64,000 bases of DNA from Fimbriimonadales bacterium. Lineage in GTDB: Bacteria > Armatimonadota > Fimbriimonadia > Fimbriimonadales > GBS-DC. The DNA lies in contig AP024673.1 of assembly GCA_025998675.1 (NCBI GenBank), positions 2,550,562 to 2,614,561 on the forward strand. The letters are read 5' to 3'. Positions 8,214 to 15,646 of this stretch are shown piece by piece. Position 1 is the first letter of the stretch, and each line of letters opens with the position of its first letter. The notes beneath the pieces are model-generated. The model ran no database searches and was not told the origin of the DNA. It saw only the letters and a program-made list of their open reading frames with translations. Position numbers and translations under genes: made by a program.

Positions 8214-8288
<75 letters not shown>

Positions 8289-8567: not shown

Positions 8568-8894
8568 TCACCACAGCTCGAAGGAATCTTCCTCTACCCG
8601 CAAGTGCTTCAGCACCAGCTCTACCGCACGCAGTTGTACCTGCGGGTCAGGCGAATCCAGCAGCGCGTACAACGCCGATACCGCCCGATTCTGCAGCACC
8701 AGCAAGCTCGTTCGCGCCTGCTGGCGCAGGTCGTCTAACACCGCCTGCACCTCTGCACGCGCACGCCAGCGGCGAAGCGTCCGCTCGCTCACGCCCAGCC
8801 GACGGGCGGCTTCCGCACAGCTGCGGCTACTCCACAGTGCTTCTGCAATCTGAATCGGTTCCACGCCTATTAGATTGCGGACACCTGCGGACAC
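8568..8894 (-). CDS. Helix-turn-helix protein, terminase small subunit-like
   Basis: The protein has 108 residues. CAEAARRLGVSERTLRRWRA (about residues 27-46) is a clear HTH of the homeodomain/phBC6A51 kind. The C-terminal half (VSALYALLDSPDPQVQLRAV, then a VELVLKHL end) matches the oligomerisation helices of many short phage terminase small subunits. That role would let the element direct packaging, as in phage-inducible islands; a plain transcriptional regulator remains possible. The start is uncertain. GTG at 8894 lies inside an array of GCGGACAC repeats. An alternative GTG at 8864 would leave those repeats upstream as operators. Confidence 0.6.
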   Translation of the reverse strand: MSAGVRNLIGVEPIQIAEALWSSRSCAEAARRLGVSERTLRRWRARAEVQAVLDDLRQQARTSLLVLQNRAVSALYALLDSPDPQVQLRAVELVLKHLRVEEDSFELW

Positions 8895-9538: not shown

Positions 9539-9859
9539 CTACCCCAGAATCGCCACAATCGCGCTCCAATCGCGGGGCGTCCATACATACACCTCCACGC
9601 CTGCACAGCCAGCCAGCGCGTCCAGCCACGCCTGCTGCTGGGGCGACGGGCGTCTACCCTCGCGCTTCAGCTCCACGAATAGCACGCGCCCGCCTCGCGC
9701 AAGCACCAAATCAGGAAACCCCGCGTCGCCCTGAATCGGCGTCAGCCACCTGCCGCGCCTGTCAAGGGCGGGGCGGGTATGGTGTACCCGCCAGCCCTTC
9801 AGCCGCGCCAGCTCCAGCAGCGTGCGCTGAAACTCCTGCTCACTCGCGAAGCTCAGCAT
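9539..9859 (-). CDS. VRR-NUC domain nuclease
   Basis: The protein has 106 residues and consists of a complete stand-alone VRR-NUC domain. GDAGFPDLVLARGGRVLFVE, then LKREGRRPSPQQQAWLDALA, contains the PD...ExK catalytic core (Asp in FPDLV, Glu and Lys in VELK) and the downstream Gln motif of this PD-(D/E)xK family. Phage members act as Holliday-junction or flap nucleases in replication and recombination. The ATG lies inside the 3' end of the next upstream gene (20-bp overlap). It is the last gene of the minus-strand replication run. Confidence 0.85.
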   Translation of the reverse strand: MLSFASEQEFQRTLLELARLKGWRVHHTRPALDRRGRWLTPIQGDAGFPDLVLARGGRVLFVELKREGRRPSPQQQAWLDALAGCAGVEVYVWTPRDWSAIVAILG

Positions 9860-10067
9860 GCGCTACAATCTCACCTGCAAGGCGTACCTTCGCAATCGCC
9901 TTCGCCAGCTCGCCTCGCACCGCGAAACGGCGACGGCTCCTGCCCTGCGACACAATCAGCACTACCTCGCCCTCGCGCGGCTCGAAGTCCACACTGAACG
10001 CGCCTGCGAAGTAGCACGCGCCTGAATCGCCGACATAGATTGTCAGAGTTCGGGGGCGTTCCGTCAT
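9840..10067 (-). CDS. Element hypothetical protein, 75 aa
   Basis: I do not recognise this family. It is a small beta-rich protein (TLTIYVGDSGACYFAGAFSV, then GEVVLIVSQGRSRRRFAVRG). It overlaps the upstream gene by 4 bp (ATGA) and the downstream VRR-NUC gene by 20 bp, so it is a member of the same operon and is probably translated. Confidence 0.65.
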   Translation of the reverse strand: MTERPRTLTIYVGDSGACYFAGAFSVDFEPREGEVVLIVSQGRSRRRFAVRGELAKAIAKVRLAGEIVAHAELRE

Positions 10068-10423
10068 GGCTGCACCTCCAGTCTTAACTGCGCGTCGCTG
10101 GGGTCTTCCACACTCCAGCGCGAAAGCGCAACGGCATACTGCTTCCCATAGCCGTACTCCAGTTCCCAGCGATACGACTCGAAACGCGCCGCCGAGATAC
10201 GGTACACGCGCCCCGTGTCGGTATCCCGAATCTCCAGCGCGTCAAAGTGCCGACGCCACCTGTCGTACATTCGCGCGTCTATCGCAATCGCAGGCGGCTT
10301 CCGTAGCAGGTGAACGCTGCTCCGAATCTCCTTAATCAGCGTGCGGTTGCAGATCACGCCTCTGAGCTTGCCCTGTGCGCCGCGAATCTCTATCGGGCGC
10401 ATGTTCGGTACAATCGTTCCCAC
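10064..10423 (-). CDS. Element hypothetical protein, 119 aa
   Basis: I do not recognise this family. The start GTG at 10423 is chosen because AGGAGGT lies 7 nt upstream on the minus strand; the in-frame GTG at 10432 would place the ribosome site too close. The sequence is mixed alpha/beta with several Arg and Tyr (MRPIEIRGAQGKLRGVICNR, then a ALEIRDTDTGRVYRIS strand). It overlaps the 75-aa gene by 4 bp (ATGA). Confidence 0.65.
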   Translation of the reverse strand: MGTIVPNMRPIEIRGAQGKLRGVICNRTLIKEIRSSVHLLRKPPAIAIDARMYDRWRRHFDALEIRDTDTGRVYRISAARFESYRWELEYGYGKQYAVALSRWSVEDPSDAQLRLEVQP

Positions 10424-10480
10424 GAATATCACCTCCTAACGGGGGCGGGCGTGTGCCAGCACGCCCAGCCCCTGTTCTGC

Positions 10481-10856: not shown

Positions 10857-13232
10857 TTAACCCTCCTCTAAGGTGAGTTGCGCGGGGGTTCTACCCCCGT
10901 CGCCGTTGCGTAGTGTGGTATGGTGTGCTGGCGCTGCAGGTGAACCTGCAGCGTCCAATCTGTGCAGCAGGGCAGTTGCCCGCGCAACGGCGGGCGTGCC
11001 CGCCAGCTGCTGGGCAGCCGTGAGCCAGCCCGCCATATCGCCCTGAATCGCGTAGCCGTCTACCGTCAGCGGCGGGAAGCCCCGCGCCTCTGCGAATGCC
11101 AGCATAACGCGCACGGCGTCCGCCTCCTCTGGCGTAAGGGCGAAGGAATCTTCAGGGCTACTCTGGCGGGCAAGGAAATCGTCTATCGCGTCCCACACCA
11201 GCGGCGTGCGATTCTGAAAGGCGTCAGGCATAAGCGGCGGCGCAGGTTGCCCGTCAGTGCCTGCAGGCGATTCGTGCATTTGTGCATTTGTGCACTCGAT
11301 AGGGGAATTGCACGAATGCACGAATGCACAAAAGCGATAGGGGTTCCCTTTCTTGCCTGTTCCCTCGCGCTCTACTTGCCTCTCCGCATACAGCTCCTGC
11401 AGCGCGTCATAAACCGTGCGCCGCGAATATCCCGTCAGGCATTCGGTCAGTTCGTCTACTGTCGCCTCGCCCAACGCCTGCAACGCCTCCAGCACCTTCG
11501 CCTTCGCGTCCGCTCGCTTCTGCTCGCTCAGCACCTCGCTGGCAACGCCCTTCACAGCGTAGGTGGAGCCGTCTTCAGCCAGCTCCAGCACCAGCGCGTC
11601 AGGCGTGAACGCCCAGAGCCGACTGGCGACGGGCGTCAGCAATCGCTGGCGCGAATGCTCCCGCACAGGCGCAAGCAGCAGTATCGCGTCCACCTCAGCC
11701 GTGAACGCATGGGAACCCGCAATATCGCCTACCTCGCCCTCTGGCGAAAGATTCTTCCTGGTGTGGTGGGCAAAGACAATCGCCGTGCGGGGCAGGTCGT
11801 TCACCAAGTCCACAAAGTACGACAGAGCCGCCGACACCGACGCCGAATCGTTCTCGTCGCGAATCTGCGCAAAGCGGCGAATGGTGTCCACTATCACAAT
11901 ATCGGGAGCCTCGCGCAGGATAGCCTTCGCCCAGTTCTCAGGGTGGGCGCGAGGAATCTCATTCAGATACAAGCTCGCCAGTTCGGGATACTGCTTCAGG
12001 CGCAGGTTCCACACAGCCGTAGGCTCCTCAGTCAGGTACACCACCTTCAGCCCAAGCCTCAGCCACTCACGGCAGGCGTGTATCATTAGCGTGGTCTTAC
12101 CTGCTTTGGGGTGTGCGCCCAGCAGGGTGATTGTGCCCCGCGCTATCAGCCCGTCAGTTCCCAAGAGGGGCAGGTACTCCACCTCGCGGGATTCCGCACG
12201 GGCGAGTATCTCGCTCAGCGGCGCGAAGGTGGGTATCCCGTCCCACGAATCGGATTCGTGCATTTGTGCATTCGTGCATTCCTCTATGGGAGTGCACGAA
12301 TGCAATAATCCTGCAATCGCCTCTCGAAACCGCTCGCCGTCGCCGCCCACCTGCAGGTACAGCTCGTTCGCGTCCTTCACGCCCTCAGGCAGCTCCAGCA
12401 CCCGCACGCGCTCCTGCAGCTCCAGCGGGCAGGTGTGCCCCAGCTTCTCCAACAGCTGCCGCCCAGCGGCGTCGGCGTCGGGGATTATGCAGATTCGCGC
12501 GAAGCGTTTCAGCGGCTCCCACCATGCCTCGCGCCACACGCTCGCGCCAGGGATCCCCAGCGCGGGCATACCCGCGTGCCACAGCGTCAGCGCGTCCGTT
12601 TCACCTTCACACAGATAGACAGTTTCCGAATCGTCCCATAAGGGCAGATTCCACAGCCCATACATACAGGGGCGATTCCCACGCGCCCAGCTGAAGCGGT
12701 TCTCGCCCTCCAGCGCGTGGCGGTAGCGCGTCGCTACCTGATTGCCGTCGGCGTCCAGATAGGGGATAGCGACTCCGCGTTCGCACTCGATCAGTCCCCA
12801 CTCACGCAGCAGCAGCGCGTTCAGTCCCTTCGCGTCCGCGTAGGCGTCTACCGTGAGGCGTTCATGAGAAGATTCTGCGGGCGCGGGCGTGGAGCCGTTG
12901 CGCTGGTGTGTGCGCTGGCTGGGCAGGATTATGTTTGCGCGTGGGGGTTCCACTCTAGCCAGCTGGCACAGCGTGCGCCACACCGCCTCTTGCGAGCAGC
13001 CCGCTTTACAGTGTACGAGTAGCGTCCCGTCGGGGGTCTCGGTCAGCGACAGCGACGGGTTCCTGTCGCCGCGTTTCTTGCCATGACCAGGCACAGGGCA
13101 GCTCACCATATAGCTCCCGTCATGCTGTGGACGGCGGTTCTTCAGGTGGGGTAAAATATCGTCAAGGCGCAGGTTGGAACCCTTTACGCCTTGCCCCCTG
13201 CCTACATGGTGGGGGGCGTGTCCGTTTCTCAT
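10857..13232 (-). CDS. Primase-helicase (zinc finger, TOPRIM, RecA-like ATPase) of the element
   Basis: The protein has 791 residues. Residues 45-79 hold a CHC-type zinc motif (C45, H50, C75, C79). Residues 205-260 are TOPRIM-like (VYLCEGETDALTLWHAG and IIPDADAAGRQ). Residues 370-500 are a RepA/DnaB-type ATPase, with Walker A GAHPKAGKTT and Walker B IVIVD. A winged-helix-like segment follows near 585-630 (VDELTECLTGYSRRTVYDAL). The protein should prime and unwind the element's DNA. Two near-identical peptides (HSCTPIEECTNAQMHES near 311 and HSCNSPIECTNAQMHES near 640) are encoded by two iteron clusters. The ATG overlaps the 60-aa gene's stop (ATGA) and GGAGGG lies 8 nt upstream. Confidence 0.85.
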   Translation of the reverse strand: MRNGHAPHHVGRGQGVKGSNLRLDDILPHLKNRRPQHDGSYMVSCPVPGHGKKRGDRNPSLSLTETPDGTLLVHCKAGCSQEAVWRTLCQLARVEPPRANIILPSQRTHQRNGSTPAPAESSHERLTVDAYADAKGLNALLLREWGLIECERGVAIPYLDADGNQVATRYRHALEGENRFSWARGNRPCMYGLWNLPLWDDSETVYLCEGETDALTLWHAGMPALGIPGASVWREAWWEPLKRFARICIIPDADAAGRQLLEKLGHTCPLELQERVRVLELPEGVKDANELYLQVGGDGERFREAIAGLLHSCTPIEECTNAQMHESDSWDGIPTFAPLSEILARAESREVEYLPLLGTDGLIARGTITLLGAHPKAGKTTLMIHACREWLRLGLKVVYLTEEPTAVWNLRLKQYPELASLYLNEIPRAHPENWAKAILREAPDIVIVDTIRRFAQIRDENDSASVSAALSYFVDLVNDLPRTAIVFAHHTRKNLSPEGEVGDIAGSHAFTAEVDAILLLAPVREHSRQRLLTPVASRLWAFTPDALVLELAEDGSTYAVKGVASEVLSEQKRADAKAKVLEALQALGEATVDELTECLTGYSRRTVYDALQELYAERQVEREGTGKKGNPYRFCAFVHSCNSPIECTNAQMHESPAGTDGQPAPPLMPDAFQNRTPLVWDAIDDFLARQSSPEDSFALTPEEADAVRVMLAFAEARGFPPLTVDGYAIQGDMAGWLTAAQQLAGTPAVARATALLHRLDAAGSPAAPAHHTTLRNGDGGRTPAQLTLEEG
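11271..11332. repeat. Iteron dyad 1: three 8-bp repeats, 14-bp spacer, three inverted repeats
   Basis: TTCGTGCA, TTTGTGCA, TTTGTGCA (11271-11294, tandem with no gaps), spacer CTCGATAGGGGAAT, then TGCACGAA, TGCACGAA, TGCACAAA (11309-11332). The two halves are reverse complements apart from the C/T alternation. The whole array is in coding frame within the primase-helicase gene. Confidence 0.9.
12255..12308. repeat. Iteron dyad 2, same architecture
   Basis: TTCGTGCA, TTTGTGCA, TTCGTGCA (12255-12278), a 14-bp spacer (TTCCTCTATGGGAG), then TGCACGAA and a decayed TGCAATAA. Both dyads read in the same codon phase and encode nearly the same peptide, so this is one duplicated unit. Confidence 0.88.
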
Positions 13233-13504: not shown

Positions 13505-14473
13505 TTAATCAGGTGGGTTCTCATGCATACCCAGTAGACTGAGTACCTGCAGTGTTGTCTTTCGCACGGCTGCACGCCCTAGATTTTCCTTTTTCACCTG
13601 CGCGAAGTAGGCTGCAATCTGCTGCCAGCTGTATCCCTTGAAGATTCGCAGGTACACTTGCTCGACGCTCCTGCTAATGTATTCGGGCGCGAGGCGTCGG
13701 GCATACTCGGCATGTACGCGATTCAGCTCGGAAGAAACACAGGGCAGCAAACCCTTCAGCTGTTCGTACCGCGTATGCCACGCGCGTTCTGGGAGTCGGT
13801 CGAGTTGCTGCTTTAAATGCGCCTCCAATTCATTTTCCAGTTCGGTAAGGCGTGTTCTGAAGCGTGTAGCCAGGGGTTGCTCGATAAGGCTAAATTCCTG
13901 TAGTTCAGGTATAAGGTTATGTAGCCTTGAACCCACCCTTTCAGCAAGGTGATAAAACCTCAGTTGGGACTTGAGAAAGTTGATTCGTAGCGTCAGCTGA
14001 AAGGCTACAGGGTCTTTGGTCAGGCTATTAATCACACCTTCTACCTCTGGCTCTAATGCCTGTAGGCACTCCCTTACTTGCTGCAGGTTCACAGTAAACA
14101 CGCCGCTTACAGGAATGCCACACCGCCTAAGATAAAGGGTAGTGCCTATTTCCCCTTTGAATGCCACTGGCAATTTCCAGCGCACGCGAAATTCCTCCAA
14201 CGCCTGCCAGAAATCTTCAGGTATAAGCCAATCTAACGGTTCCTCCTGTTCCTCTTCAGTAGGTTCGGGCGCAAGGTGGAACAGTGCTTCCAATCCTTCA
14301 CGGAATCCCTGCTCCTCACGAAGCAATACTTCCAAGTATGCCTTCCTGTAGGTGGGTTTTAGAATCAGTCGCTCATGAAGCCCTTTCGGGTTGCCTCGCT
14401 CACGCTCTATAATCTCCAGAGCAGTGCTGATAGTCAGCCGTGCTTCTGCAGTAAATATAGCTTGTCCACACAT
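13505..14473 (-). CDS. Orphan 322-aa element protein, mainly helical, lower GC
   Basis: I do not recognise this family. The protein is largely alpha-helical with charged amphipathic stretches (LTELENELEAHLKQQLDRL). The C-terminal FKGYSWQQIAAYFAQVKKEN, followed by LGRAAVRKTTLQVLSLLG, resembles a helix-turn-helix, so it may be a DNA-binding regulator. The base composition is visibly more AT-rich than its neighbours, a sign of separate origin. The ATG at 14473 has a GGGAG site upstream; an in-frame GTG at 14488 is the alternative. It has its own TATACT -10 (AGTATA at 14551 on the plus strand) next to the integrase stop. In satellites this position often holds an immunity, regulatory or defence gene. 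Confidence 0.6.
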   Translation of the reverse strand: MCGQAIFTAEARLTISTALEIIERERGNPKGLHERLILKPTYRKAYLEVLLREEQGFREGLEALFHLAPEPTEEEQEEPLDWLIPEDFWQALEEFRVRWKLPVAFKGEIGTTLYLRRCGIPVSGVFTVNLQQVRECLQALEPEVEGVINSLTKDPVAFQLTLRINFLKSQLRFYHLAERVGSRLHNLIPELQEFSLIEQPLATRFRTRLTELENELEAHLKQQLDRLPERAWHTRYEQLKGLLPCVSSELNRVHAEYARRLAPEYISRSVEQVYLRIFKGYSWQQIAAYFAQVKKENLGRAAVRKTTLQVLSLLGMHENPPD

Positions 14474-14481
14474 GTCCACTT

Positions 14482-14522
14482 CTCCCACTTAGCGCCCTGC
14501 TGGGCTGCTGATGAAGTGGGAG
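14482..14522 (-). promoter_or_regulatory. Leader hairpin before the orphan gene
   Basis: CTCCCACTT pairs with AAGTGGGAG across 23 nt that contain a second small GC hairpin. It lies in the predicted 5' leader between the TATACT box near 14551 and the start at 14473, and could control translation because it ends close to the ribosome site. Confidence 0.4.
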
Positions 14523-14557: not shown

Positions 14558-15484
14558 CTACCGCTTCCGCAGGTTCCTCAGCGGGCTATGCTGGGCGTGC
14601 GCCTGCTTCAGGTCGTTCTCCACCAGCGCAAGGTACTGGCGCAGTACCGTGTAATCCGAGTGCCCCATCAGCTGGCGCAGGTGTTCGAGGTCGATTCCGT
14701 TGCGCAGGCTCCAAGTGGCGAAAGTTCGCCTGAAGGCGTGTGCGCCCAAGTGCTTGGGCAATCCTGCACGGCGTCCGATTCTGTCCACTACCTGCAGCAA
14801 GCCGTCCAGCGTCAGTGCGCCGTACCTGCCGTGCCACAAAGGAGAGGATTCCTGCAGGGGGAACGGGCACGCCTTCAGGTATCGCGCCAGCGCGAGGCGC
14901 ACTTCGGGCGACAGAAACACCATGCGCTGCTTCGCGCCTTTCCCGCGAATCAGCAGGCAGTTCTGTTTCGCGTCGCCGACAGCCATGCTATGCGCCTCGT
15001 GAATGCGCATGCCTGTGTCCAGCAGCAGCAGAATCAGGGCTTTATCGCGCAGGCGGAGCCAGTGCGTGCCCTCGCACGCCTGCAGAATCTGCTCTATCTC
15101 CTCAGGCGTCAGGGCGGGCTTCACCTTCTGGGGGGCTTTGGGCTTCTCCACCTTCGCGAAGGGGTTATGCTCGGTCAGTCCCTCGCGCATGCACCAGTTC
15201 CAGAAAGTGCGCAGAATCGTGTGGTGTTTCACGAGGGTATGCGGGGCGCGTCCCGCCTGCTTGAGTTGCAGCAGGTAGGCGCGAATATCGTGGGGCTGAA
15301 CCTCGTCGAATCGGGTCTTCTCGCGCTCCTGCAGGAACACAAGGAACGGGCGCGTGGTTCGTTCGTAGTTGTCTACCGTGCGCGGGCTGGGCGTCTTGAG
15401 GGCGACGCTCTCCAGCCACAGGGCGCGGGCTTCGGCAATCTCGCTTCTGTGCCAGAATTCAAGCAGTGCTTGGGTCTTGCGCAT
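14558..15484 (-). CDS. Tyrosine recombinase (integrase) of the element
   Basis: The protein has 308 residues, XerC/D-like in size. The N-terminal SAM-like core-binding domain spans about 15-105; the catalytic domain spans 125-300. Catalytic residues visible are Arg160 (DTGMRIHEA), a Lys near 182-185 (GKGAKQR), His249 and Arg252 (HAFRRT), His275 (MGHSDY) and the nucleophile Tyr284. ATG 15484 is chosen over the 36-bp longer form because GGAGG lies 7 nt upstream. The gene abuts attR, the usual place for an integrase, and reads away from it. No separate excisionase is evident; the small HTH proteins of the element are candidates. Confidence 0.92.
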   Translation of the reverse strand: MRKTQALLEFWHRSEIAEARALWLESVALKTPSPRTVDNYERTTRPFLVFLQEREKTRFDEVQPHDIRAYLLQLKQAGRAPHTLVKHHTILRTFWNWCMREGLTEHNPFAKVEKPKAPQKVKPALTPEEIEQILQACEGTHWLRLRDKALILLLLDTGMRIHEAHSMAVGDAKQNCLLIRGKGAKQRMVFLSPEVRLALARYLKACPFPLQESSPLWHGRYGALTLDGLLQVVDRIGRRAGLPKHLGAHAFRRTFATWSLRNGIDLEHLRQLMGHSDYTVLRQYLALVENDLKQAHAQHSPLRNLRKR

Positions 15485-15536
15485 ACTGTGCCTCCTTGCG
15501 CCATGCCAGATAGTAGACACAAGGGACGCGAGGGGG

Positions 15537-15599: not shown

Positions 15600-15646
15600 C
15601 ACTCGTAATGCGCAGGTCGTGGGTTCGAGTCCCACTGTCGGCTCCA
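15600..15646 (+). repeat. attR, 47-bp direct repeat (tRNA-Thr 3' fragment)
   Basis: Identical to 8242-8288. It has the anticodon arm and T-arm but no acceptor 5' strand or D-arm, so it is not a tRNA gene. It ends 12 bp before the trpC GTG. Confidence 0.92.

Follow-up and report, generated by a model that had tools for sequence, protein, structure and literature searches.

P4 alpha is a fusion of primase and helicase that recognizes octamer iterons in two cis regions, ori and crr, both of which are needed. The iterons of P4 are located outside the alpha gene, and the helicase of alpha comes from another superfamily than the one described below. To our knowledge, T7 gp4 lacks a winged helix at its C terminus and its gene holds no iterons, nor is lambda O a helicase or a primase. 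Lambdoid origins are placed centrally within gene O, where iterons occur together with an AT-rich tract (PMC7466680), and extra iterons there add amino acids that are predicted to lie outside the DNA contact (PMC7466680, PMC6022878). The Rep protein of SaPIs binds iterons through its C-terminal domain (PMC7581432), and in PICI origins two iteron sets flank an AT-rich region (PMC6092414).

The window analyzed here is a stretch of 64,000 nt from Fimbriimonadales bacterium (GCA_025998675.1, contig AP024673.1, positions 2,550,562-2,614,561, forward). It contains an element of approximately 7.36 kb, integrated in the tRNA-Thr(CGT) gene and ending in 47-bp direct repeats, with the following features:

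8242-8288, plus strand: left 47-bp attachment repeat, the 3' end of the tRNA-Thr(CGT) gene (8214-8288)
8568-8894, minus strand: small HTH protein, like terminase small subunits (TerS; phrog_7344, E = 2.5e-6)
9539-9859, minus strand: VRR-NUC nuclease (Holliday junction resolvase type)
10064-10432, minus strand: p122, a conserved element protein of 122 aa
10481-10852, minus strand: p123, a conserved element protein of 123 aa, adjoining the primase gene
10857-13232, minus strand: primase-helicase, T7 gp4-like, 791 aa, containing both dyads
13505-14488, minus strand: 327-aa protein between the integrase and primase genes, without a family match
14558-15520, minus strand: tyrosine integrase of the element
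15600-15646, plus strand: right 47-bp attachment repeat

Among the eight proteins searched, no structural gene was found in the element except for the TerS-like one, which hints at packaging as a phage satellite. The 327-aa protein was found, weakly, in just two of the compared homologous loci (L049 and L054), and its sequence differs greatly between sister elements that resemble each other in other respects; in some elements the gap between integrase and primase genes is only 500-700 bp, too short to encode it. Four further related elements are present in this genome, with duplicated tRNA ends of Lys-TTT, Gln-TTG, Gln-CTG and Leu-TAA, and p123 shares 83% identity with its counterpart in the tRNA-Lys sister. 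Five related tRNA-integrated elements thus share one 2.99-Mb genome, each in another tRNA gene (the other loci being L049, L050, L051 and L052). Other genomes also contain relatives; one collection gives their hosts as Armatimonadetes and Fimbriimonadales bacteria, and a remote relative comes from a Dehalococcoidia bacterium. A search of viral sequences with the single primase sequence returned nothing, and one with the primase alignment returned distant relatives only.

Within the primase-helicase gene, the domains and dyads are arranged as follows, from the 5' end of the gene:

12360-12617, minus strand: TOPRIM domain, aa 206-291 (PF13155, Toprim_2)
12255-12308: site 1 dyad, 5' part of the gene, three TTYGTGCA units, 14-bp spacer, two inverted units
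12279-12292: site 1 spacer, 14 bp, coding strand CTCCCATAGAGGAA
11751-12155, minus strand: RecA-like helicase domain, aa 360-494 (PF13481, AAA_25)
11325-11501, minus strand: winged-helix domain, aa 578-636, the proposed iteron reader
11271-11332: site 2 dyad, 3' part of the gene, three TTYGTGCA units, 14-bp spacer, three TGCACRAA units
11295-11308: site 2 spacer, 14 bp, coding strand ATTCCCCTATCGAG

The winged-helix match of the window protein was to the TrmB family and fell under the curated cut-off; in sister proteins, Zn_ribbon_DnaG and other winged-helix families were matched. Across seven primase proteins, Pfam matches were obtained for Zn_ribbon_DnaG (3/7), Toprim_2 (6/7) and AAA_25 (7/7). 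There was no Pfam match to an SF3 or D5-type helicase domain (the P4 alpha family), the AAA_25/RecA-like domain being found there instead. The nearest solved proteins, both by sequence and by fold, were T7 gp4, then Twinkle, DnaG and RadA. A predicted model based on an alignment of seven sequences had a mean pLDDT of 63. Its low-confidence segments (321-377 and 638-669) correspond to most of the two dyad-encoded stretches, the winged helix alongside being confident, and the model suggests that the linkers encoded by the dyads are probably disordered.

A previous reading of this DNA, made from sequence only, had described two TTYGTGCA dyads with 14-bp spacers, the last unit decayed, and the coordinates given are exact. 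At site 2 the TTYGTGCA units occupy 11271-11294 and the TGCACRAA units 11309-11332, encoding a linker just after the winged helix. Approximately 1 kb away, site 1 has three TTYGTGCA units at 12255-12278, followed by an exact inverted unit at 12293-12300 and a decayed one with two mismatches at 12301-12308, and the linker that it encodes lies between the TOPRIM and helicase domains. Allowing up to two mismatches, the tandem pair TTYGTGCATTYGTGCA had seven matches in the window, all within the two dyads, against 0.14 expected from shuffles; seven was reached in 0/100 shuffles. Across the genome (2,987,958 bases) there were six exact TTYGTGCA tandem pairs, again all within these two dyads; the other four matches had two mismatches each, the decayed arm of site 1 being among them. 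Triple tandem TTYGTGCA was absent from all 60 relatives searched. The proposed search of the genome and relatives for tandem dyads led back to this gene only.

Most close homologues of the primase carry iteron dyads in the same two gene positions, one in the TOPRIM-helicase linker and one directly behind the winged helix, but each with its own iteron:

L049 and L053: ATAGTGCA
L050: ATCTGGCA
L051: CATTTTTC
L055: AACTCTGG
L056: AACTCGGA
L057: AACTCTGC
L113: AACTGACG
L052, L058 and L059: 9-mers

Because sister elements place the dyads alike but in different DNA words, they are almost certainly the element's private binding sites, as judged from these comparisons. The same comparisons strongly support the earlier suggestion that the DNA itself is probably bound, with peptides and iterons both differing between homologues and a dyad standing in the same place. 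By eye, at least two dyads are kept in most elements. The primase ORF of L055 (4210-6621) has no dyad at site 1 and two dyads head to head at site 2, a layout that looks as if the number of two dyads is kept and not their place. One relative (G187) has two contigs, L113 and L114, with two copies of the element whose primase gene and dyads are apparently identical. Clusters of octamer-like inverted repeats were also seen inside two remote primase genes, at other positions (L069, 4280-6847, from the Dehalococcoidia bacterium, and L100, 5581-7866, a viral contig). A clear dyad was not found in some remote homologues (L063, L117, L118 and L101), and the phage primase relatives THSA-485A, phPA-G and ctuNt529 were without dyads in the regions read. 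IMG/VR contigs contained five stretches of tandem TTYGTGCA-like repeats, with a primase relative seen in none of these loci. One of them, L006:10019-10091, is a TTYGTGCA dyad with a 33-bp gap, within an AT-rich stretch near the contig end and outside the listed ORFs; its octamer is possibly convergent.

Strict dyads numbered 14 inside the primase ORFs (48 kb) and zero in the surrounding 270 kb, and a strict dyad was present in 1/280 codon-shuffled ORFs. With a looser score, 16/27 primases exceeded the threshold, compared to 1.9% of 257 other ORFs at the same loci. Many 9-mers were common to sites 1 and 2 when both came from one element, and few when they came from different elements (mean 1.6; permutation p < 1e-5), the exception being L049 and L053, which have one iteron in common. 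The pair of dyads within an element changes in concert.

The spacers of homologues have an AT-rich core beside runs of C or G, CCCTTAAT or CCTATATA, with ATTCCCCTATCGAG at site 2 of the window as the counterpart. The core was present in 21/27 spacers of the family compared to 4.7% of random segments drawn from genes of mostly 58-63% G+C, the pattern having been picked post hoc. The window's own two spacers fail the shared pattern and show a loose likeness by eye. Given this post hoc choice and the failure of the pattern in the window, we treat the core as supporting evidence only.

When the window element was compared with L049, p123, p122, VRR-NUC and TOPRIM were 81-91% identical, but the winged helix only 48%, and the iterons differ. 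That the winged helix has diverged further than TOPRIM and the neighboring proteins suggests the winged helix of Rep (the primase-helicase) as the reader, and on these alignments it would be what binds the iterons. A host protein is unlikely to be the reader, because the iterons of elements in one host differ. No other DNA-binding gene common to all elements was found among the elements compared. Covariation between winged helix and iteron beyond overall relatedness, controlled for helicase distance, was suggestive but not significant (partial Mantel p = 0.07 and 0.08).

Could the repeats instead belong to the protein? Both window dyads are read in one frame of the primase-helicase ORF and give the common peptide PIE(E)CTNAQMHES, so the same codon phase and near-identical peptide previously remarked upon are real. 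However, the argument drawn from them is weak, because a tandem 8-mer yields one and the same cyclic octapeptide whichever frame is used (8 mod 3 = 2). L057 has two 62-bp dyads that match at 58/62 positions but are read in different frames, giving the unrelated peptides QQLCNSATPLIHLQTCRVAE and SATLQLCSSPNTLADLQSCR; it is therefore the DNA which is conserved. The two right arms of L049, L053 and L056 are likewise in different frames, and several homologues have different frames at their two sites. These repeats are real and conserved at the DNA level. A protein feature would be expected to appear as the same peptide over different DNA lacking a dyad, and the opposite was found, the dyad being kept with differing peptides. 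As the peptides of homologues are unrelated and the segments are mostly low-confidence linkers, we rejected a repeated peptide with a function in the protein as having next to no probability. An in-frame mobile palindrome of the Rickettsia palindromic element type would account for two palindromic copies in frame within one gene, but it was rejected as equally improbable: searches of the genome and of 60 relatives found the window's two sites and no dispersed copies, and each element has a different sequence. Linkers of almost the same length are also found in the sister genes.

A reading of the dyads as operators, through which Rep or another regulator represses or activates the primase operon or an internal promoter, has more in its favor. 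Paired inverted sites are typical of regulators, site 2 precedes p123, the next gene, by approximately 420 bp, and autoregulation through the same iterons is common among initiators. Against this, both sites are deep within coding sequence and away from the gene's promoter, the single promoter-like match on each strand does not adjoin a dyad, and a second DNA-binding gene common to all elements was not found; two coordinated sites of 3+3 tandem octamers with an AT-rich core also exceed what an operator needs, and we regard this role as unlikely. Hairpins in mRNA or single-stranded DNA, acting as an attenuator or as an ssi-like primase assembly site known from some plasmids, are rather less probable still. 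RNA of the window dyads folds far below shuffles (z about -6), yet any inverted repeat would do so, and a hairpin does not require tandem 8-mer repetition within its arms. In L052, moreover, site 2 consists for the most part of direct repeats and shows no particular fold (z -0.98), and no Rfam family reached gathering score at the dyads. Sites for partition, packaging or recombination of the element are repeated too; the element has a TerS-like gene, and the segment of helicase and winged helix lies between the dyads. However, the proteins searched included no partition genes, and a TerS-like gene turned up in few elements only while dyads are nearly general. A location in the replicase gene and two sites that change jointly suit an initiator better, and we hold a partition, packaging or recombination role to be very improbable. 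A swap of the helicase segment by recombination between dyads was also considered and is unsupported, since the dyads differ between elements.

Of the three options raised by the sequence-only reading, origin iterons bound by the encoded replicase are thus clearly favored, and the mobile palindrome fell for want of copies elsewhere. We consider it probable (roughly 0.75) that the dyads serve as iterons, specific to each element, of a bipartite replication origin which lies within the gene for its own initiator and is recognized by the encoded Rep; that the winged helix binds there, that the duplex melts, that replication starts from the dyads and that both sites are required is what we infer. 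In the proposed mechanism, the element would excise and the winged helices of Rep, a primase-helicase of the hexameric type, would then bind the tandem octamers flanking the AT-rich spacer. The duplex would melt at the spacer, and Rep, once loaded, would unwind and prime. The two sites, approximately 1 kb apart, may cooperate, perhaps by each receiving a helicase hexamer, or with one serving as origin and the other as an additional cis site. The 3+3 octamers of a dyad could correspond to the winged helices of a hexamer, one per subunit, which would provide two paired sites for loading. Having its own iteron, each element would allow several to reside in one cell without cross-initiation. A broader and more tentative proposal, which we hold to be somewhat less probable than even, is that the gene is a replication-specificity module in which helicase, winged-helix reader and two targets are one unit, that specificity diverges or swaps as that unit, and that the tRNA-integrated family coexists through mutually foreign iterons.

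If true, these elements provide a natural series of initiator-origin pairs with reader and target in one gene, among which specificity has switched repeatedly, in some cases within one genome. The code between winged helix and iteron, the reason for paired dyads and the replicon compatibility of coexisting elements would become directly testable, and origins of unknown satellites could be found as octamer dyads in the interdomain linkers of primase-helicases.

A published account of such an arrangement was not found in the literature searched, the coverage of which was incomplete. Rickettsia palindromic elements differ in having dispersed in-frame copies, compared to only two sites genome-wide here. 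The protein resembles T7 gp4 and Twinkle, with sequence and fold matches across TOPRIM and helicase, and zinc finger, TOPRIM and RecA-like helicase were all matched among the family proteins, as in T7 gp4-like proteins. Unlike P4 alpha, the window protein has no SF3 or D5-type Pfam match. With the PICIs and SaPIs the window element shares a specific attachment site and integrase, small size and, among the eight proteins searched, no structural gene but the TerS-like one; with them (and with SCCmec Cch2) it would also share a self-loading helicase, a C-terminal iteron-binding domain and possibly two iteron sets flanking an AT-rich region, as well as an element-encoded integrase and sometimes TerS and primase (PMC7581432, PMC6092414). 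However, their origin lies directly downstream of rep, whereas here the iteron sets are inside the gene, twice, and the helicase is RecA-like and T7 gp4-like rather than a DUF927 or D5-type Rep. As in lambda O, the iteron clusters of the window lie inside the coding sequence of a replication protein, but lambda has one iteron cluster beside an AT tract, in contrast to the two dyads of 3+3 octamers here, each enclosing a short core. By analogy, these elements appear to combine the in-gene location of lambda and the SaPI helicase with a C-terminal reader, with two dyads per gene.
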